Shown: piece after piece, positions 563-38,728 of the stretch
How the letters are laid out: each line of letters opens with the position of its first letter
Numbering within the stretch: position 1 is the stretch's first letter
IMG/VR virus record: IMGVR_UViG_3300033149_001491
Span: 1 to 40,157 of that record
Strand: one strand, 5' to 3'
DNA: 40,157 bases
Source of the DNA: a virus
Translations under genes and position numbers: made by a program
The notes under the pieces: generated by a model
The model's database searches: none
The model's input: only the letters and a program-made list of their open reading frames with translations
Told to the model about the DNA's origin: nothing

Positions 563-580
563 TATGCTATACAATATATA

Positions 581-608
581 AGTATAGTATTAGACAGACT
601 AAAATATA
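581..608 (+). repeat. AT-rich repeated element, copy A
   Basis: Contains TAGTATTAGACAGACTAAAA, the core of a motif found five times in this genome (also near 4495, 24381, 34883 and 35411), always between genes. The centre has TTAG/CTAA half-sites. Other copies sit just upstream of promoters. Here a TGCTATACA extended -10-like sequence lies immediately before it (565-573) but without a good -35. Confidence 0.6.
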
Positions 609-651
609 TTAAAGGATAAGTGATGGAGCATAAACTAGCTGAGGTTTAATT

Positions 652-4149: not shown

Positions 4150-4483
4150 AAACTTCCAAAAAGAATTTACCCAATGTCCCAACTGTGGCTCAGACCAACG
4201 CTTCTGTGAACAGTTAGCACAAGAACTCAAGGACAGAGGATTAGCCAGGCCTAGCTGGACATTTAACTTTGATGTCCGTAATGGTGTGGTAATGGATAGC
4301 CAATATACCCAAACCAAGATACTTACTGGAGCTGACTTACCAGGCTTCCTCATCCATACCGACATCTGTATGGACTGTGGCACTATCTATGCTGTTAGGC
4401 TGGCTAGACTAGAGGGTAAGATGAGACCAGCACCTAAGATGGGCCCTATACCACCACAGTTTAATAATCCTATGGCAAACTGA
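4142..4483 (+). CDS. Zinc-ribbon hypothetical protein
   Basis: 113 residues. ATG 4142 was chosen over the upstream in-frame start because GAGGAGGAGCAAG sits directly before it. A CPNCGS knuckle near residue 12 and CMDCGTIYAVRL near residue 77 are separated by a beta-rich middle, giving a split zinc ribbon. The C-terminus is proline-rich. This is the last gene before a non-coding gap with a repeated element and a promoter. Confidence 0.7.
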   Translation: MDKNFQKEFTQCPNCGSDQRFCEQLAQELKDRGLARPSWTFNFDVRNGVVMDSQYTQTKILTGADLPGFLIHTDICMDCGTIYAVRLARLEGKMRPAPKMGPIPPQFNNPMAN

Positions 4484-4494
4484 TATATAAATAT

Positions 4495-4527
4495 AATAAA
4501 TAGTATTAGACAGATTAAAAAATATTA
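4495..4527 (+). repeat. AT-rich repeated element, copy B
   Basis: Carries TAGTATTAGACAGATTAAAA, differing by one base from copy A in the core, in the same orientation. It lies 22 bp upstream of the -35 box of the promoter at 4550. This position suggests an activator or repressor site acting on that promoter. Confidence 0.6.
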
Positions 4528-4549: not shown

Positions 4550-4578
4550 TTGACAAACTGCTCCAAATATGCTATGAT
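4550..4578 (+). promoter_or_regulatory. Sigma-70 promoter with extended -10
   Basis: TTGACA (4550-4555), 17 bp spacer, TATGAT (4573-4578), preceded by TGC (extended -10). Transcription would start near 4585, so the HNH gene must use ATG 4607 rather than the earlier TTG at 4550, which lies inside the promoter. It gives the replication block a second, internal start. Confidence 0.8.
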
Positions 4579-4606: not shown

Positions 4607-5038
4607 ATGATTAGAGCCAAGGCAATAGAATTGGATGGTATGAAGTTTACCATCCCTATAGCAATTTGTAAGCGGTGCGGCTATACATGGGCGCTCAGGG
4701 AGGTAGTGCCGCCAATGTGTCCGAAATGTAGGACATCCAGATGGAACGATGAGTCGGGCAGGCCCGTGAATAGGGATGAGGTTATGCTCCAAATTATTAA
4801 CAGGCTATCACAGCTAGGCCCAGGTGAATTGTTTACTGAATTGGATAATCAAGGTGTAAGATGCCGTGATGGTGGTAAATGTCAGTCATGTGGAGAGTCC
4901 GACCGCAGCTCACAAATGCAAGATACCATACTTGAGGTTCACCATATTGATGGTGATAGGGAAAATAACTGTGGATGTAATTTAGTCCTGTTATGTAAAT
5001 TCTGTCATAGGTTAGTTACGCAAAGAAAGAATGGATGA
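4607..5038 (+). CDS. HNH endonuclease with N-terminal zinc ribbon
   Basis: 143 residues. A zinc ribbon (CKRC at 21-24, CPKC at 38-41) comes first. The C-terminal half is a typical HNH nuclease: CQSCG, then HHIDGD with the two histidines, an asparagine, and LCKFCH closing the structural zinc site. HNH proteins nick or cut DNA; in phages they act in homing, packaging or recombination. Freestanding between early genes and close behind its own promoter. No strong Shine-Dalgarno is visible. Confidence 0.85.
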   Translation: MIRAKAIELDGMKFTIPIAICKRCGYTWALREVVPPMCPKCRTSRWNDESGRPVNRDEVMLQIINRLSQLGPGELFTELDNQGVRCRDGGKCQSCGESDRSSQMQDTILEVHHIDGDRENNCGCNLVLLCKFCHRLVTQRKNG

Positions 5039-5058
5039 GTTTCATCAGTGAGGTATCA

Positions 5059-5217
5059 ATGAACAGGAAAGCATTTACGGTAAGACTGCCACCTGAGTTG
5101 GTAAAGGAGCTCAGAATTAAGTGTATAAAGGAGGGTCGCAGGGTTAATGAAATAATTGAGGAACTTGTAAGTGGATATGTATTCCCTATAGGAACAATAA
5201 AATCAAAGGAGGATTAA
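5059..5217 (+). CDS. Ribbon-helix-helix DNA-binding protein
   Basis: 52 residues. The N-terminal strand KAFTVRLPPEL is followed by two helices including EGRRVNEIIEELV: the classic CopG/Arc ribbon-helix-helix layout, binding DNA as a dimer. TGAGG lies six bases before this ATG. An upstream in-frame ATG at 5035 overlaps the HNH stop but lacks a ribosome-binding site. Probably a small repressor; its target may be one of the operator families described here. Confidence 0.75.
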   Translation: MNRKAFTVRLPPELVKELRIKCIKEGRRVNEIIEELVSGYVFPIGTIKSKED

Positions 5218-24360: not shown

Positions 24361-24410
24361 GCTTCAAAATATTTTTATATAATAAATAGTATTAGATAGA
24401 CTAAAATATA
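24361..24410 (+). repeat. AT-rich repeated element, copy C
   Basis: Contains AATAGTATTAGATAGACTAA (from 24384) on the plus strand. It is preceded by TTAGCTTCAAAATATTTTT, a second block shared with copy D. It lies between the giant-protein gene and the scaffold promoter, about 30 bp upstream of the minus-strand -35 box. Confidence 0.6.
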
Positions 24411-24434: not shown

Positions 24435-27400
24435 TTATAGTCTCTTACCAACACTCCTGCTAATCTGTTTAAAGGCTTCCTCACCGGCTGGAGTTTGGAA
24501 GCTGGATACTCTACCCCAGAAATAGAGCCAGCCATCAAGGTAGGGATTGGCATATCTCAGGGCTTTTCTGGCCTCACTAACATCAGAGCGGAAGGCTGAG
24601 ACCAGTTTTCTACCATCAGCCCTGGTTATATTCTTAATTACATCCTGTCTGGCTAAGTCCTGATTAACTCTTTCCAGGTATAAAAACTCATTTATTAGCC
24701 TTTGTTCCTCCTCCTCATAATTGCTCAGGACTTTTTGCCATACCTGGTTATACTTGCTAATATATTGCTCATTAACCTCTCTCCTGATAGCCTCTAATGG
24801 AGTTTGGTGCTGACTAAGGAAGGATTCCCATTCAGATTTCCACTGGTCTGGAACAGCCTCCTCTACAGCAGTCCTTTCAGCCCAGAAGGTTTCCCAATCC
24901 TGTCTTAATTCTCCTGTCTCAGGGTCTCTAATCTCCTTAACCTCAATGTCAAAGTAGAGGTTCATTAGCTCTTTTAACGGATGCAAAACTGGAACTGGTA
25001 TGCCCTGCTCCTCAAAATACTTTCTCCTCTCATCTAGTTTGAGTAATGGATTCTCCTCCTGCTTCTGGTCTATAAAGGCTCTCCTATCACTATAGAGGTT
25101 AGAGACTCTAGATACATAGTCTTTGGTGGATAAACCTCCTGTTAAGGCTTCCCTCTCCAGCTTAACCACCTCAGCCCTCTGGTTCCCAACATACCTTTCA
25201 ATCTCATCCCAATCAAGGGTAAGTTTATCAGCCACTAATTGTTGCTTACCTGGATATAAAGTGGAGGCTAGGGTTTGCCATTTCCAATAATCCAACTCCT
25301 GCAAGAACATCTGGTCTTCCGGAGACATACCTCCAACCATATCCCAAATTCTATGGCCATGTAGCCTTAACCATTTTTGCTGGTCTGGGGTATAGCCATA
25401 TTTCTCCTCTATATACTTGGTGATTGTATCATAGAGTTGCCTTTGCTCTGGATGTCTTAGCCTGGCTAGTCCTGACTGCTCAAATAATAAGGATAAGGCT
25501 CCTACAGTTCTGCGGGATTCATCCCAAACAGCCTGTTCTTCATCGGTTAGCTCCTCTCCAGCATTTCTCTTGGCATTGATTACTGAGGCATCATAACCTC
25601 TATTGGTTACTTCTCTCATTATCATATAATTCCTAAACCGTTCTCCAAATATATGGTCGGTGAGGAGCTTGATAAACTCATTATCAGGAGCTATGGCTTG
25701 GGCTATCATTAGAGGAGACTTCCAGATTGCTGGAATAACCTCTCCCATCTGAGGCTCCAAGCCACCAAACATGGCTAGAGGTATGCCAATATGGGCACCT
25801 GGATAGAAGCCATAGCGGGTGAGGAAGTCATTAAATTCTAGGAGGCTGGTGGCCCCCTCATAAGCATCATAGTATTCAGGATAGTCCCTTCTTGACAGCC
25901 TGGTGGTTAGGGTGCCATAGATAGTTCCTCTAAATGGATTGACTTCAACACTGGTTCCTGCTACTGGGATATAGCCATAGTCAGTATTATCCTGCCATCT
26001 TTCATAGGCAGTAAAGGTTCCTGGATGCCTAATAAATGAGCGGGGTAGCCAGAACCATCTCTGGGACTCATAGCGCCAGAAGGGATAAATGGCTTTCATT
26101 ATGGAGTCAAATACATTGGCATTGGAGTAGTCGGTATATTCTTTGTAATACCATTTTTGGGCTTCATCCATAGCCTGTTGTCTGAGGTCTTGTAAGCCTT
26201 GATAATCAGATTTTAGCTTAATTGAAGGCTTACCAGTAATGAGTTTTGCTTTTGGTAAATTTATATTGGTAACCGTTATTTCAGCCATCTTTATTGGAGC
26301 TTTATTAGTTGTTATTATACCCTTATCCACAAGGCTCTTTACTATCCCAGCTCCCTCATCAGTTGCCAAATCTATATGGACTGTCCGCCCTCTAGCCTTA
26401 GATAATGCTTCCAAGTATAACTCTGTACCAAGACCTTGCCTACGAAATTCCTCAGCAACATTTATACCCTCAATTTTCATAGTATTTTTGGTCATTCTAT
26501 ATTGGATAAAATTACCTGTAACATTACCTTTGGTATCATAATCCCTTAATATAGTAGAGCCAGATGGATGTAACTCCTCCCTCAATATAAGTTTAGTAAC
26601 AGGCTTCTTACCAACCATACCTGGTTCAAATGCCAACTTCTCCACCATATCAGCAGTTTCATCCACATACCTACCAATCTCGGCTACCTCATTATCAGGA
26701 AGCAACTTGGCATGGTAGAGATGGTGTAAATCCTCTCTAACAGCCTTCATCTCTAGTTGTTTGGAGGTCATCCAGCTAACTGCTTCTGGATTAACCCTCA
26801 AACTCCTGACTAGCTGGTCATAAACATCACCAACAGCTTCTCTGGTAAAGCCTTCATCTCCAGTTCTTACCATAGCCATAACATATTCTATAAAGCCATC
26901 TCTATCATTGACTATGGTGAGGTTGTCCATAATAGCTCTGGATAGGTCATCACCTTGAGCACCCACCAGCCGGCCCACATCATAAGGAGTAAGGACTCTA
27001 TCAGTAACTTTAATAGCTGGTCTGGAGAATGGTTGGATACCAGCAGCCATATCTACAGCCTGCAAACTTCTGGTTATATCTCCATCCAGCTTCATCATTT
27101 GGAGGTTAAGGTCGTGGTATTGACTATCTATATTGCGGTAGAAATCATCCCACCAATCACTGGTTAGGTCTTTTCTACCTACTTTGGCAAAGGTCTCTCT
27201 ACGCCAAGCCATATTCTCAGCACGGAACTTGTCAGCCAGTAATCTCTTGGACTCTAACAGGTCAAATAACCTTTGAGACCTGTCAGCCCAATCCTTACCA
27301 AAATTGAATTTGGTTACGTCAGCCCTCATCTTACCTAACAAGGTTTCCAGATTATTACCTGACTTTTCCATAAACTCCAGAATATCGTCATAAATCTTGT

Positions 27401-30293
27401 CAAAATGAGCCCGCCTCTCGGCCAATGGTAGTCCTCTACTCCTGATGGTAGCTTGAGCCATTATCTGTTTTGGAGTGGCTCCATAGACCTGGCTGGCTAT
27501 GTTGAGGTTAACCATCAGGTGGGCCATTTCCTCTGGATTTCTTACCTCCAGCTTGGCTAACTCATCGGTTAGGGCTTGGAATTGCTTGGTGGCTAGTTCA
27601 GCTCCTCTAAGGTACTCTTCTACCAATCTACTATTAGCATCTCTCATTACCTTATTAACTGACCTAATGCCATCAACATATAAGGTATTATCGTCAAATT
27701 CCTTGATAATAAAGTCCCTTACACTATTAGGTAAATCAGGATGCTCTTTAAGGATGTTGTTTACTTCTTTCCTATAAATAGATTTACGGGTAAACAAATC
27801 TTTAACAGACCTAATACTATCCAGGTCTAGGGTGGTTTTGGCATCTACCACAGCCTGTCTTAGCTCTCTAACCAGCTTCTTGTCAACTAGTTGTGGTAAT
27901 CTGCCCTCAGCCCGGACAATGGCTTCAAACTTCTCTCCACCCATCTCTTTGAACAGGACTAGGTATTTCTGACCTACAAAGTTTCTCCTCAAGTCCATAC
28001 CAAATCCGCCAGGCAATCTTACCAGGCCTGTATAAAGTTTGTCTGCCCATTCCTTCTGTCCTACCACAGCTAGTTGGAGTATCCAATTATTCCATTCTTC
28101 CTCACCACCTCTCCTTGTAAGTTTGCCCATAGTCTCAGAGACTCCAAGGGCAGGATTAACCAAGTCAGGGTCAACAGCAAGCCCTTTACTAATATGGGCA
28201 AACCTATCAGTAGTCATTCTCCTTGGGAATACACCACCTAGTATTGACCTCCAATAATCCTCAATAACATTCATTGGGCCATACATACCAAAGGTTAGGT
28301 ATGATTCGGCAGTAGGTCTAATAATTGTTTGCTCCACATATTTACGCCATACAGCCTGAACCTTTAACTCAGTTCCAGCTATAAAGCTCTGGATTCTGGT
28401 AGCCTGCTTCAACCATTCGGCCTGCTCCATTTGGCTAATATAGTAACGGAAATTCCTCTTAACCAGTGCATTAAGAGCCTTACCTGGATTACTCAATCTG
28501 GCAAATGCCTTAGCCTCGGCTACTATGTTACCGGCTCTACGGCTTAACAGGTTAGCAGCCTGGTTAAATAGTTTTGGCTCACCGCCTCTCAATCCAAATA
28601 TTTCCAATATCCTACCAGCACCTTCGTTAACTGTCATTAGCTTGGCAGTCTTGCTACCATATTTCTGGAATACAGATTCAAATATGGCATTAACATCACT
28701 AACCATTTCTCTGGTAATTTGTTCTCTGGTTAGTCCTGCTCCCAATCTCTCAGACCATCTCAGTATGGTATCCTGGTCTAATGGATTGTGCATTAGCAAG
28801 GCTCTACCAAATTGGGCTAATTCATCGGTTGCCTGAGGATTGTCAAAAGCATATCGGATAGAACGGTTGGCTATCTTAGTCCAATCCTTCATAGTCATAC
28901 CACGGTTGACCAGCTTGCCTTTACCAGCAAACTTCTCCAGGCTTACCTTTGCCCATTTACCACTCCAATCAGCAGCTATCAAGGCTCTCTGTGATATGGT
29001 CTTTGGCATCTTACCAGCTAGCCATTTAATACCATTGAATGGTGCTTCAAATGGGGCAAAGATAACTCTATTAGCCTTGTTCAAAACTGTGGCAAAGCGG
29101 GCAAACCTACCTGTCATACCGGCCGTCATTGAGGCTCCTAAGGTAAATACACTGAGCCACATTAGAGGGTCGGTAATGGTTTCCATTACCATATATTTCA
29201 GCAGGAACTCAGGAACACCACTGAATGGGGCATCCCATTCCTCCCAAGCTTTCTGGAGGGCTTGCCAATCACTATCAGAGGTAGCTCTATGCTGTTGGTA
29301 TAAATGTTCTATATCAGGGATAAAGGTTTTATACAGAGCCGCTGCCATTGGCTGGCTGGTAGTCTCAAAATACTTTCTGCCGACCTCCAACAGGGCTACT
29401 CCGGGCATTACCGCCATTTCCTTGAGGAAGTCAGTTAGCTTGTAATCGGGCATCTCGGCTATGGCTTTCCTGGTCTGGCCCAACTGTTCATTGTAGAGTT
29501 TGGATTCAGCCAATATCTCTTTGGCTTGTGCCTCAATCTTTTCCACAGCGGACAAATCAGCATATTCTGGATAAAGCTGGTCAAATAGCTCCTGCCATTC
29601 TGATTCTGGTAATACTGGTTCAGGCATTTCTGGAGCTTGTAATGATTGTAATATGGATTGGACTGTAGCTACTTGGAGGGTAACAGGGCCAGTGATACCT
29701 GGTGCTGGAACTTCCAGCTCAGGCAGTAGCTCTGGGGCCATCTCCTCACCAGCTTCTAATGGCTGTCCGGCCCTAACTGATTGGAATATCCCTTCCACAG
29801 CCTTCCTAACATCATCCAACTCAGCCTGAGTCATTCCTTCTGGAGGGGTAAAGGTCTTAAATACATCCTCTACATTAGCAAAAAACGTACTAGGGTCTTT
29901 TGGAGTAGCTCCAGCCTCGGAAATCTGTTGTAGAGCTAGAAGGTTCTGTGGAACCACACTATAAATATTGGCATAGAATTGTTCCTTAGCCATATTGGTG
30001 GCCACATCCTCCAGGTCAGTCTTGACCTGGCCCATTCTCTGTTTGATGGCTGGAGTGGTTGGTGATAGTGGGCCCCAACTAAGTATGTATGGCTCAGCTA
30101 TTTTGGCTATGGCTGATATTGGTTCTGGTAATTTCTCAGTCCAGGCTCCACGTTCCTGGAGACTGATAAGTTCAGTTTCCAGTTCCTGCCCTCTAGTGCC
30201 AAGCCGCTCTAGTCTGGTGAAGTGGCTCTCAGCCTTTTTCTGCCAATCATCCAACAACTTTTGGAATGGACTTTTCTGTTCTCCATTAGGCAT
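24435..30293 (-). CDS. Giant virion-type protein with an embedded GNAT-like domain
   Basis: 1952 residues, the largest gene (about 15% of the genome). The first 130 residues are helical and coiled-coil-like; about 374-430 contain a hydrophobic segment (LSVFTLGASMTAGM and the following helices) that could insert in membranes. About 1225-1345 look like a GNAT acetyltransferase core, with EEFRRQGLGTELYLEA as the acetyl-CoA loop. About 1380-1520 are an aromatic domain (IYPFWRYESQRWFWLPRSF). The rest is long helices. Its place after the portal suggests an internal or ejection protein. Confidence 0.65.
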   Translation of the reverse strand: MPNGEQKSPFQKLLDDWQKKAESHFTRLERLGTRGQELETELISLQERGAWTEKLPEPISAIAKIAEPYILSWGPLSPTTPAIKQRMGQVKTDLEDVATNMAKEQFYANIYSVVPQNLLALQQISEAGATPKDPSTFFANVEDVFKTFTPPEGMTQAELDDVRKAVEGIFQSVRAGQPLEAGEEMAPELLPELEVPAPGITGPVTLQVATVQSILQSLQAPEMPEPVLPESEWQELFDQLYPEYADLSAVEKIEAQAKEILAESKLYNEQLGQTRKAIAEMPDYKLTDFLKEMAVMPGVALLEVGRKYFETTSQPMAAALYKTFIPDIEHLYQQHRATSDSDWQALQKAWEEWDAPFSGVPEFLLKYMVMETITDPLMWLSVFTLGASMTAGMTGRFARFATVLNKANRVIFAPFEAPFNGIKWLAGKMPKTISQRALIAADWSGKWAKVSLEKFAGKGKLVNRGMTMKDWTKIANRSIRYAFDNPQATDELAQFGRALLMHNPLDQDTILRWSERLGAGLTREQITREMVSDVNAIFESVFQKYGSKTAKLMTVNEGAGRILEIFGLRGGEPKLFNQAANLLSRRAGNIVAEAKAFARLSNPGKALNALVKRNFRYYISQMEQAEWLKQATRIQSFIAGTELKVQAVWRKYVEQTIIRPTAESYLTFGMYGPMNVIEDYWRSILGGVFPRRMTTDRFAHISKGLAVDPDLVNPALGVSETMGKLTRRGGEEEWNNWILQLAVVGQKEWADKLYTGLVRLPGGFGMDLRRNFVGQKYLVLFKEMGGEKFEAIVRAEGRLPQLVDKKLVRELRQAVVDAKTTLDLDSIRSVKDLFTRKSIYRKEVNNILKEHPDLPNSVRDFIIKEFDDNTLYVDGIRSVNKVMRDANSRLVEEYLRGAELATKQFQALTDELAKLEVRNPEEMAHLMVNLNIASQVYGATPKQIMAQATIRSRGLPLAERRAHFDKIYDDILEFMEKSGNNLETLLGKMRADVTKFNFGKDWADRSQRLFDLLESKRLLADKFRAENMAWRRETFAKVGRKDLTSDWWDDFYRNIDSQYHDLNLQMMKLDGDITRSLQAVDMAAGIQPFSRPAIKVTDRVLTPYDVGRLVGAQGDDLSRAIMDNLTIVNDRDGFIEYVMAMVRTGDEGFTREAVGDVYDQLVRSLRVNPEAVSWMTSKQLEMKAVREDLHHLYHAKLLPDNEVAEIGRYVDETADMVEKLAFEPGMVGKKPVTKLILREELHPSGSTILRDYDTKGNVTGNFIQYRMTKNTMKIEGINVAEEFRRQGLGTELYLEALSKARGRTVHIDLATDEGAGIVKSLVDKGIITTNKAPIKMAEITVTNINLPKAKLITGKPSIKLKSDYQGLQDLRQQAMDEAQKWYYKEYTDYSNANVFDSIMKAIYPFWRYESQRWFWLPRSFIRHPGTFTAYERWQDNTDYGYIPVAGTSVEVNPFRGTIYGTLTTRLSRRDYPEYYDAYEGATSLLEFNDFLTRYGFYPGAHIGIPLAMFGGLEPQMGEVIPAIWKSPLMIAQAIAPDNEFIKLLTDHIFGERFRNYMIMREVTNRGYDASVINAKRNAGEELTDEEQAVWDESRRTVGALSLLFEQSGLARLRHPEQRQLYDTITKYIEEKYGYTPDQQKWLRLHGHRIWDMVGGMSPEDQMFLQELDYWKWQTLASTLYPGKQQLVADKLTLDWDEIERYVGNQRAEVVKLEREALTGGLSTKDYVSRVSNLYSDRRAFIDQKQEENPLLKLDERRKYFEEQGIPVPVLHPLKELMNLYFDIEVKEIRDPETGELRQDWETFWAERTAVEEAVPDQWKSEWESFLSQHQTPLEAIRREVNEQYISKYNQVWQKVLSNYEEEEQRLINEFLYLERVNQDLARQDVIKNITRADGRKLVSAFRSDVSEARKALRYANPYLDGWLYFWGRVSSFQTPAGEEAFKQISRSVGKRL

Positions 30294-34145: not shown

Positions 34146-34279
34146 TACCTTACCTCATTCCTCTCTATAACCTGGACTAACTCCATCTGTCCACAGATAG
34201 GACATTTCCACAATACCTGCTTATCAGTCTTTGTAGCTACCCTCATTGGAGTACCACACTTATTACAGGTTTCAGCCAT
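34145..34279 (-). CDS. Small zinc-ribbon protein
   Basis: 44 residues from ATG 34279, chosen for GAGAGGAAAA upstream. CNKCGTPMRV near the start and CPICGQMELV near residue 27 form a zinc ribbon. It overlaps the end of the terminase small-subunit gene. Confidence 0.55.
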   Translation of the reverse strand: MAETCNKCGTPMRVATKTDKQVLWKCPICGQMELVQVIERNEVR

Positions 34280-34817
34280 GTTTTTCCTCTCTTGACAGCC
34301 TAATCTCAAGGACAGTTTTTGTCCAATCCAGAGCATCCTCTCTAACCTTACCATCACCAGCCAATAACTGTCTGAGGAGGGCTAGGTGTTGTGGAGTGTA
34401 GAATTTCCTGATGATAGCTAGGTATTGCTGTTCCCTTTCATTAAGAGGTTTGCCGGTAGCATCCTTATACAGAACTTTGAAATCCTTGGTAAGGACAAGT
34501 TTGAAATTACGGGTGAATTCAATGTCCAGAAGTTGGTTGGATAAATCCTTTCTTACATCTGGTATCTTGGATACAAACTCCACAAAGTCAGGGTCATTTT
34601 GGGTCCAACGGGTGAGGGTTTTATCATGGATACCAGTCAGTCTTTTGGCCTCTACTCTGGAGAATCCTGCCACAAGATAGCCAAGGTAAGCTGCCTTCTT
34701 GTCTCCATCCATATACAGTGGCAGTAGGCTTTGTATCATACCTTCTGTAGGACTTGTCCCAGTCTGTTCCATCAACTCCGCACTATTCTCGGTTAAATTC
34801 CTAGAGTGCTTTGTCAT
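34272..34817 (-). CDS. Probable terminase small subunit
   Basis: 181 residues from ATG 34817, chosen because GAGGTGG precedes it and the promoter at 34836 would leave the longer frame untranscribed. A helix-turn-helix-like unit (YLVAGFSRVEAKRLTGI, then KTLTRWTQNDPDFVEF) is followed by helices for oligomerisation. Small terminases bind the packaging start site and hand DNA to the large subunit. The large subunit lies four small genes downstream. Confidence 0.65.
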   Translation of the reverse strand: MTKHSRNLTENSAELMEQTGTSPTEGMIQSLLPLYMDGDKKAAYLGYLVAGFSRVEAKRLTGIHDKTLTRWTQNDPDFVEFVSKIPDVRKDLSNQLLDIEFTRNFKLVLTKDFKVLYKDATGKPLNEREQQYLAIIRKFYTPQHLALLRQLLAGDGKVREDALDWTKTVLEIRLSREEKHG

Positions 34818-34835: not shown

Positions 34836-34864
34836 AGTATAGCACAAATAAGCTCAGATTGCAA
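34836..34864 (-). promoter_or_regulatory. Promoter with possible operator in the spacer
   Basis: Minus strand: TTGCAA (34864-34859), 17 bp, TGC before TATACT (34841-34836). The spacer holds TAGCACAAATAAGCTC (34840-34855, plus strand), which matches 12 of 16 bases of the operator family copy at 37182. A repressor there would block the packaging genes. Repeated element D lies just upstream. Confidence 0.65.
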
Positions 34865-34866
34865 GT

Positions 34867-34900
34867 TTAGCTTCAATATTTTTTAGTCTACTTATTAGAT
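34867..34900 (-). repeat. AT-rich repeated element, copy D
   Basis: Diverged copy: TTAGCTTCAATATTTTTT (34867-34884) matches the first block of copy C, and TTAGTCTACTTATTAGAT (34883-34900) is the core in reverse orientation. It ends next to the -35 box of the terminase promoter. Confidence 0.5.
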
Positions 34901-35352
34901 GAGTTTTGTATAGCAACCTTTAATTCTGTATACTTACCACCAAACCCATGTTCCATAAACTCACATCCTATGTGGCAACGCTGGCACACCCAAATACCCC
35001 ATTGTGGATTATCATCATCCCAATGGTGATAATGTAATCGTTTCTCAACAACTTTACCACATATCTCACAATATCCTGTCCAATCCCTCTTGCGTACCTT
35101 GCGATATTTACCGTTTATTATTAAAACATTGTGTCTATGATAATCCTTTTTATCTTTCCAAACCCTCTTTCTACCTCTACTGTTACCCTTCCTCCTCTCT
35201 CCATCAATACCCCATCTTTTGAAACTGATGCATTTCTCAGGGCTGGCACAAATCTGCTGGATTCTTTGTCTACTTACTCCACAAACATCAGCTATTTCCT
35301 GATAGGTAAGCCCTTCCTGCCTCATCCTCAAAACAATTTCCAACTTATTCAT
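34888..35352 (-). CDS. HTH-HNH protein beside the terminase
   Basis: 154 residues from ATG 35352, which lies six bases after the -10 box, so the mRNA would be essentially leaderless; an upstream ATG at 35376 lies inside the promoter. An N-terminal HTH (GLTYQEIADVCGVSRQRI) is followed by a basic linker and a C-terminal HNH nuclease (CEICGK, then HYHHWDDDNP and CQRCH). It could be a homing enzyme, a packaging cofactor or a regulator; the HTH and promoter control suggest a regulatory element. Confidence 0.75.
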   Translation of the reverse strand: MNKLEIVLRMRQEGLTYQEIADVCGVSRQRIQQICASPEKCISFKRWGIDGERRKGNSRGRKRVWKDKKDYHRHNVLIINGKYRKVRKRDWTGYCEICGKVVEKRLHYHHWDDDNPQWGIWVCQRCHIGCEFMEHGFGGKYTELKVAIQNSSNK

Positions 35353-35358
35353 ATCCCC

Positions 35359-35387
35359 ATTATAACACAATGTCAAATCTATCGCAA
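35359..35387 (-). promoter_or_regulatory. Divergent promoter, minus side
   Basis: Minus strand TTGCGA (35387-35382), 17 bp, TGT before TATAAT (35364-35359): an extended -10 promoter. The first base of ATG 35352 falls where transcription should start, six bases past the -10, implying a leaderless message like that of lambda cI from PRM. Confidence 0.7.
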
Positions 35388-35398
35388 CAAATTTGACA
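35371..35398. promoter_or_regulatory. Inverted-repeat operator candidate
   Basis: TGTCAAAT (35371-35378) and ATTTGACA (35391-35398) are perfect inverted arms separated by 12 bases, together spanning the -35 box and part of the spacer of the promoter at 35359. This geometry suits a dimeric repressor. Confidence 0.6.
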
Positions 35399-35410
35399 CA
35401 CTTTAGAAAT

Positions 35411-35438
35411 ATATTTTAGTCTATCTAATACTATTTAT
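35411..35438 (-). repeat. AT-rich repeated element, copy E
   Basis: On the minus strand it reads AATAGTATTAGATAGACTAA, identical to copy C. It lies exactly between the divergent promoters at 35359 and 35461, so one bound protein could act on both. Confidence 0.65.
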
Positions 35439-35460
35439 ACTAATAGAATATTCCAGGCAC

Positions 35461-35489
35461 TTGACAAGTTTCTTCCATTATGCTACAAT
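35461..35489 (+). promoter_or_regulatory. Divergent promoter, plus side
   Basis: TTGACA (35461-35466), 17 bp, TGC before TACAAT (35484-35489). It launches the plus-strand unit. Transcription should begin near 35496, which is also the first base of the first ATG. Confidence 0.75.
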
Positions 35490-35495
35490 ATAAAT

Positions 35496-35735
35496 ATGAA
35501 GCTATGTAGTGAGATGGAGAGGAGGGGAATTAAAGACCCTGATTCACGGGAAGGTGTAGATTGCTGCCTCAATTGTGGATTGGGATTCTGTGAGATAGAG
35601 GTAGGAAAAGATAGGGGGGTAATTTACAGAAGGAAGCAGCAGGCGAGACAGTTAGCTGAGGAAGGATTAACACTGGAGGAAATTGCCAAAGAACTCATAG
35701 TAAGTGTCCGGACAGTTCGGAGGTATTTGGCATGA
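35496..35735 (+). CDS. HTH regulator with N-terminal cysteine cluster
   Basis: 79 residues from ATG 35496, six bases after the -10 box; ATG 35514 is an alternative with a weak ribosome-binding site. Cysteines (CCLNCGLGFC near 23-32) probably bind zinc. The C-terminal HTH (QLAEEGLTLEEIAKELIVSVRTVRRYL) resembles sigma-region-4 or resolvase-type helices. As the first gene of the plus-strand unit it may regulate the divergent promoters, as Cro or CI do in lambda. That is inference. Confidence 0.65.
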   Translation: MKLCSEMERRGIKDPDSREGVDCCLNCGLGFCEIEVGKDRGVIYRRKQQARQLAEEGLTLEEIAKELIVSVRTVRRYLA

Positions 35736-37242: not shown

Positions 37243-37271
37243 TTGACAAGTATGTCCTATTGTGCTAGACT
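37243..37271 (+). promoter_or_regulatory. Sigma-70 promoter of the structured leader
   Basis: TTGACA (37243-37248), 17 bp, TGC before TAGACT (37266-37271). Transcription should start near 37279, exactly where the first leader hairpin begins. The -10 is weaker than in the other promoters. Confidence 0.65.
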
Positions 37272-37278
37272 ATACATA

Positions 37279-37433
37279 GTGAGTATAGACTCACAAGCTG
37301 GCTGGAAGTGGTAATAGCCAACTAGCACGTTAACAAAGCTGATAGTCCTTCATAAAGACAATTCAGCTATGAATAGCGAATTACTCTAGCTGCTAGGGCA
37401 TAGGAGTAATACAGAAAAAGGAGTGTTACTACT
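37279..37433 (+). ncRNA. Structured 5' leader RNA with several hairpins
   Basis: In about 155 bases before the ATG at 37434: GTGAGT/ACTCAC with a 4-base loop (37279-37294), TGGCT/AGCCA (37299-37320), AGCTGA/TCAGCT (37337-37368) and ATTACTC/GAGTAAT (37380-37410), all perfect arms. The last hairpin stops about 10 bases before AAAAAGGAG. It could regulate translation, stabilise the message or be released as a small RNA. It matches no riboswitch class I recognise. Confidence 0.5.
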
Positions 37434-37610
37434 ATGCGAACAAGCTATTGTGTATACTTCCGCATTAAGGGTCAATCTACTGGTACTCTAGAAGTACCAG
37501 ACTTCACATACCAGCAAGCACTCAAACGTGCTAGGGAATTATCCAAGTATTCAGACACAGAATCTATCATCATACTACAGGAAGTAGAACACGTTAAACA
37601 ACCAGGATAG
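37434..37610 (+). CDS. Small hypothetical protein behind the structured leader
   Basis: 58 residues. A strand start (SYCVYFRIKGQ), TGTLEVPDF, then a helix (YQQALKRARELSKY) and a strand: a small alpha-beta fold. AAAAAGGAG lies about 12 bases before the ATG. No family recognised. Its long, folded leader and operator cluster suggest it is tightly regulated. Confidence 0.6.
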   Translation: MRTSYCVYFRIKGQSTGTLEVPDFTYQQALKRARELSKYSDTESIIILQEVEHVKQPG

Positions 37611-37679
37611 ATGAGCAAGCTCCTATGTCCTATCAGCTAGAGTAAAATCCAAATTGCTATTCCAAATAGTGAGGTTACA

Positions 37680-38345: not shown

Positions 38346-38374
38346 TTGACAATTGCAATAGTTTATGTTATAAT
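38346..38374 (+). promoter_or_regulatory. Consensus sigma-70 promoter
   Basis: TTGACA (38346-38351), 17 bp, TGT before TATAAT (38369-38374), a perfect match with an extended -10. The start of transcription falls near 38381, only about three bases before the ATG at 38384, so this message is nearly leaderless. Confidence 0.85.
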
Positions 38375-38383
38375 ACAGGTAGA

Positions 38384-38728
38384 ATGTATAATGATAGGTT
38401 TATAGTCTATATCCTACACTTTGACCGGCCATACTGGCAAGCTGGTAAGGCTAATTGCCAGCATTATGTCGGTTATACCAAAGACTTGCCAGCCAGGCTG
38501 GACAAACACCGGCAAGGTAATGGCTCCAAGCTGGTAAGATATGCCAATAATCAAGGGATACAATGGCAGTTAGTTTTACAGGAAGATTATCCTGACCGGT
38601 CATCGGCTATGAAGCGGGAATTACAGATTAAGAGGAATGGTGGAGGTAAGAGGTTATGTCCGATATGTCGGCACCTGGAGCTGGACTATAAGGACATATC
38701 AGCAGTAATGCAGGAGGCTAACCCATGA
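38384..38728 (+). CDS. GIY-YIG endonuclease
   Basis: 114 residues. IVYILHF near the start and HYVGYTKDLPARLDKH are the GIY and YIG elements, with the conserved Arg in the following helix; a later ELQIKR helix closes the fold, as in the short UPF0213/YhbQ-like type. A CPICRH end could bind zinc. It cuts or nicks DNA; freestanding phage copies can be homing enzymes. First gene after a perfect promoter. Confidence 0.85.
   Translation: MYNDRFIVYILHFDRPYWQAGKANCQHYVGYTKDLPARLDKHRQGNGSKLVRYANNQGIQWQLVLQEDYPDRSSAMKRELQIKRNGGGKRLCPICRHLELDYKDISAVMQEANP

Follow-up and report, generated by a model that had tools for sequence, protein, structure and literature searches.

The interval between positions 35352 and 35496, at which the early and late operons of the window part, is most probably a conserved early/late divergent promoter hub, with accessory genes on predicted leaderless promoters. 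The window, i.e. the whole stretch of DNA analysed, comprises the 40,157 bp of an IMG/VR virus record. Its first 114 bases are repeated identically as its last 114, in keeping with a complete circular or terminally redundant genome. The uncultivated phage it represents is of the lytic type. Its leftward late operon is composed of the genes for TerS, TerL, portal, a 1952-aa protein, scaffold and major head protein, while the rightward early operon carries PolA, an AAA helicase, and nuclease and methyltransferase genes. New in this phage group are the mixture of predicted leaderless and leadered messages among equivalent genes and a dispersed, genome-specific element, E.

Relatives were collected by a TerL search of viral contigs, which gave about 25 distinct IMG/VR records; a terminase search of genome contigs found no relative of the window's terminase, and the terminases of named phages are related to it only distantly. 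Rfam gave no match across the window. The 1952-aa protein (24435-30293, between the portal and scaffold genes) has only a weak acetyltransferase match, and divergent homologs of it occur in 16 relatives.

The divergent promoters and the inverted repeat

All promoters were called by consensus only and are therefore predicted. On the minus strand the -10 box is followed by GGGGAT and then by the ATG at 35352-35350, and on the plus strand by ATAAAT and the ATG at 35496, so that the sequence bears out the claim of the original prediction that both ATGs lie exactly six bases past their -10 boxes. With the standard sigma70 geometry, such a gap would place the start site at the A of the ATG. The features of the region and the copies of E are collected in Table 1.

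Table 1. Positions of promoters, genes and repeated elements in the window.
Feature	Position	Strand	Remarks
E site 1, between the divergent promoters	35408-35452	-	its forward direction faces the minus promoter
E site 2, upstream of the scaffold/major head protein promoter (24333-24304, minus)	24368-24410	+	
E site 3, within the early operon, where it separates genes 374 and 652	567-610	+	
Additional E copy, preceding a sigma70-type promoter (4550-4578) and the HNH gene 4607-5038	4483-4526	+	
E', degenerate fifth copy, at the HTHm 3' end and upstream of the TerS promoter	34875-34897	-	
Minus promoter, -35 box TTGCGA	35382-35387	-	17-bp spacer
Minus promoter, -10 box TATAAT, extended (TGtTATAAT)	35359-35364	-	
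Plus (early) promoter, TTGACA-17-TGcTACAAT	35461-35489	+	-35 box 35461-35466, -10 box 35484-35489
Inverted arms TGTCAAAT/ATTTGACA, perfect, 8 bp	35371-35378 / 35391-35398		flank the minus -35 box
HTHm, 154 aa, predicted leaderless	34888-35352	-	N-terminal HTH and HNH-type part
HTHp, 79 aa, predicted leaderless	35496-35735	+	first gene of the early operon
TerS (terminase small subunit), leadered	34272-34817	-	heads the late operon in relatives
TerS promoter, TTGCAA-17-TGcTATACT	34836-34864	-	Shine-Dalgarno leader

The arrangement is not peculiar to the window. Not counting the near-identical L001, 17 relatives were positive in an automatic search for divergent promoters upstream of TerL, and in nearly all of them the pair encloses an E-like sequence; three further relatives have divergent promoters around E. 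The spacers of several early promoters of relatives share ACC(T/C)T(A/G)TG directly before the -10 box, an example being TTGACAAACGGACTACCTTATGTTATAAT in the promoter G001:C1:15398-15426.

The perfect inverted arms over the minus promoter, proposed before to form an operator, are present, but the operator reading did not stand. Chance alone would yield 0.21 repeats of this kind in a stretch as long and of the same composition, and 47 occur over the entire window; comparison with relatives lends no support, and the HTHm gene is absent from most of them. In the HTHm promoter of the relative G011 the only such repeat is a 7-bp pair, TGTCAAG/CTTGACA, formed by two -35 boxes.

Predicted leaderless messages

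A scan for strong promoters in the window and 25 relatives gave 110 sites, for which the distance from the -10 box to the first ATG of an ORF of at least 35 codons was counted. Below 16 bases the distances found were 5 (one case), 6 (eight cases), 8 (one case) and 9 (two cases); there were none from 10 to 15, and from 16 upwards there is a broad class with Shine-Dalgarno sequences. The eight cases at offset 6 compare with 0.27 per neighbouring offset (Poisson about 5e-10, with independence approximate as the records are related). The best AGGAGG match never exceeded 3/6 in the offset-5/6 class and never fell below 4/6 at offsets of 16-32, a complete split. Start codons are backed by orthologs for five of the eight offset-6 genes (HTHm of the window and of G011, both predicted leaderless; HTHp of the window with G002; G010 with G011; and a conserved gene of G014).

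Because of the spacing classes, the missing Shine-Dalgarno sequences and the ortholog-supported starts, the original prediction of leaderless messages has strong comparative support at the level of sequence, and leaderless initiation at the ATG is likely for both genes, 35352 and 35496. It is unlikely that the mRNAs instead have 5' ends further upstream, or that a downstream start codon with a Shine-Dalgarno sequence is used. Two promoters with a 3-base-longer spacing (window 38384 and HTHp of G002) and an AGGAGG just inside HTHp (35520-35525) would fit that alternative, but no suitably placed start codon follows the internal AGGAGG, the eight offset-6 cases are different ones and intermediate spacings are absent, the N-termini of homologs align at this ATG, and the HTH match of HTHm starts at residue 3 already.

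The G011 homolog of HTHm lies at a different genomic site and is also predicted leaderless. The G014 gene (p35732) is predicted leaderless while its orthologs, e.g. in G001 and G003, are leadered, so within one phage group nature supplies leadered and predicted leaderless versions of orthologous or equivalent genes behind otherwise matching promoters. The two 9-base cases, the GIY-YIG gene at window 38384 and HTHp of G002, would have leaders of about 3 bases; the former follows a perfect TTGACA-17-TATAAT promoter (38346-38384) and its predicted leader is 3 bases long. The offset-8 case, in G010, was rejected as near-leaderless, since it concerns a scaffold gene with a leader, the start of which aligns at an ATG further downstream.

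Phage lambda has been named as the first case of leaderless initiation (PMC3160421), and in Deinococcus-Thermus and other bacteria the ribosome-binding site gives way to a -10 motif some 6-7 bp ahead of the ORF (PMC12340547, PMC3160421). The phage genes described here are alike in having the -10 box 6 bp before the ORF and no Shine-Dalgarno sequence, but differ in that their promoters combine a strong -35 box with an extended -10 box and in that the same genomes also hold a Shine-Dalgarno class. In the scanned set, PHROG Arc-like repressor matches were obtained for Arc-like (ribbon-helix-helix) proteins at window 5035-5217, L047 12966+ and L049 2398-, and in two relatives the genes are seemingly expressed from offset-5/6 leaderless promoters.

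Element E and the helix-turn-helix genes

The repeated element noted between the two promoters proved to be real, conserved and syntenic. Its consensus is TAGTATTA-N12-TATA, about 26 bp, of which the first block was the search seed and the TATA block was not seeded. In nearly complete relatives E occupies three syntenic sites, with the orientation fixed at each; around site 3 a sigma70-type promoter was sought nearby and not found. The degenerate copy E' scores 19/23; outside the E copies no place in the genome exceeds 16/23. In the variable part of E, copies from one genome are 81% identical, against 54% for copies at the same site in different genomes, a difference reached in 0 of 2000 permutations. 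This greater likeness within a genome suggests, from sequence comparison, that E is a site read by a co-evolving phage-specified factor, although concerted exchange among the copies could give the same pattern. Covariation of E within genomes provides a handle on early/late timing in phages with no recognised polymerase or lysogeny genes.

E was rejected as a palindromic operator, its dyad symmetry (0.649) being only slightly above that of shuffles (0.620), and HTHp and HTHm were rejected as dedicated E readers, both being absent from most relatives that keep E. Candidate binders are the conserved HTH protein 1787-2215 (11 relatives) and the ribbon-helix-helix protein 5035-5217; a link to E was sought for both and found for neither. 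The operators and stoperators of cluster A mycobacteriophages are 13-mers in more than 20 copies, oriented with transcription (PMC9283540). E resembles stoperators in being short, asymmetric and repeated in promoter regions and intergenic gaps, and differs from them in its length of about 26 bp, its three to five copies and an orientation which is constant at each site yet does not everywhere follow transcription; moreover, in this phage lysogeny genes were not seen.

Helix-turn-helix matches were found for both products of the divergent genes, as had been claimed. HTHp has a conserved Cys cluster (C4, C24, C27, C32) and a C-terminal HTH, and its homologs among the relatives are in G002 and G008. 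HTHm has a putative nuclease part of the zinc/beta-beta-alpha type (C-x2-C...YHHW...C-x2-CH), with the YHHW, the C-x2-CH and the paired cysteines invariant in homologs. All three members of the HTHm family match the phrog_2340 endonuclease (best 1.6e-6), and on these PHROG matches and the conserved Cys/His residues the putative HNH assignment is based. The AlphaFold model has an HTH followed by a beta-hairpin and a helix (mean pLDDT 74); the fold search against the PDB gave nothing below E 0.001 (best E 0.11).

HTHm is a putative HTH-HNH gene, probably gained by this lineage. Among the relatives only G011 has homologs, three copies of which one is decayed by frame shift. In the window HTHm has E with its promoter on one side and E' with the promoter of TerS on the other; in G011 the ends of one homolog and of a decayed remnant adjoin E at sites 2 and 3. 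The second HNH gene of the window (4607-5038), unrelated to HTHm and with no homologs in the relatives, also follows an E copy and a promoter, which suggests, without proving it, that HNH genes travel with E-promoter units or accumulate alongside them. Like free-standing phage HNH homing endonuclease genes, HTHm is patchy, sits in gaps beside conserved genes and has a decayed, frame-shifted copy (in G011); unlike them it has an N-terminal HTH, adjoins E and, in two genomes, has its own predicted leaderless promoter.

In the reading as a divergent hub, the sigma70-type RNA polymerase of the host would use extended -10 promoters to transcribe the early operon to the right and the late (terminase) operon to the left. 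The first gene on either side would, in this lineage, start at +1, with ribosomes engaging the 5'-terminal AUG directly. The E between the promoters would belong to a small group of scattered sites, and a DNA-binding protein encoded by the phage probably binds these to coordinate the early, terminase and scaffold/head units. The HTH-HNH endonuclease gene, presumably a homing-type element, would have been gained beside E along with a further E-promoter unit, which would leave TerS with a separate promoter of its own. An extension of this scheme, in which E, read by a phage factor that diverges between genomes, is the operator of a small phage-wide early/terminase/head circuit and its sites are exploited by mobile HTH-HNH genes with portable leaderless promoters, is tentative and on balance improbable; such promoters, ending in the gene's own ATG, would work wherever the gene had landed.

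About equally doubtful is that E is not regulatory but the target or landing site of homing-type HTH-HNH genes. The ends of HTH-HNH genes or remnants no more than about 30 bp from E or E' in three cases (the window and sites 2 and 3 of G011) and the second HNH gene downstream of the extra E copy at 4483 speak for it; against it, E stays at its sites in relatives without an HTH-HNH homolog, and its co-variation within genomes is not needed by a purely parasitic target. The short, asymmetric and directional nature of E and its conservation inside each genome would also suit a directional promoter read by an RNA polymerase or sigma factor that the phage specifies, but at site 2 E runs in every case opposite to the late genes, and no RNA polymerase or dedicated sigma factor was recognised among the scanned ORFs, making this quite improbable.

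Least probable of all, and to a high degree unlikely, is the lambda-like PRM/PR switch of the original prediction, with HTHm and HTHp as repressors that oppose each other by way of E and the inverted repeat. The two genes are divergent and each has an HTH, and the message is predicted to be leaderless, as is the cI message made by lambda PRM, in which six bases separate the -10 box and the ATG. Here, however, both directions are predicted leaderless; in place of two divergent repressors of the CI/Cro type there are a putative HTH-HNH nuclease and a Cys-cluster/HTH protein; and in place of shared palindromic operators there are an inverted repeat at chance level and a central E which is hardly symmetric and which, with the divergent promoters, is kept where neither HTH gene exists. 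As for a temperate module, no integrase family was found among the scanned ORFs of the window, in agreement with the earlier note of its absence.

Other features of the early region

At window 37243-37433 a strong promoter without a close downstream ORF would give a leader of 150-190 nt upstream of early genes. Similar leaders are present in relatives (L041 1962+, L052 494- and L038 970-), with the conserved blocks GAAGTGGTAAC, TAGCAC and CCTTCATAAAG. No Rfam match was found for this leader, which is possibly a structured phage RNA leader. A 26-nt inverted repeat (37381-37406 / 37620-37645), 92% complementary and with its arms 213 nt apart, flanks the small gene 37434-37610.
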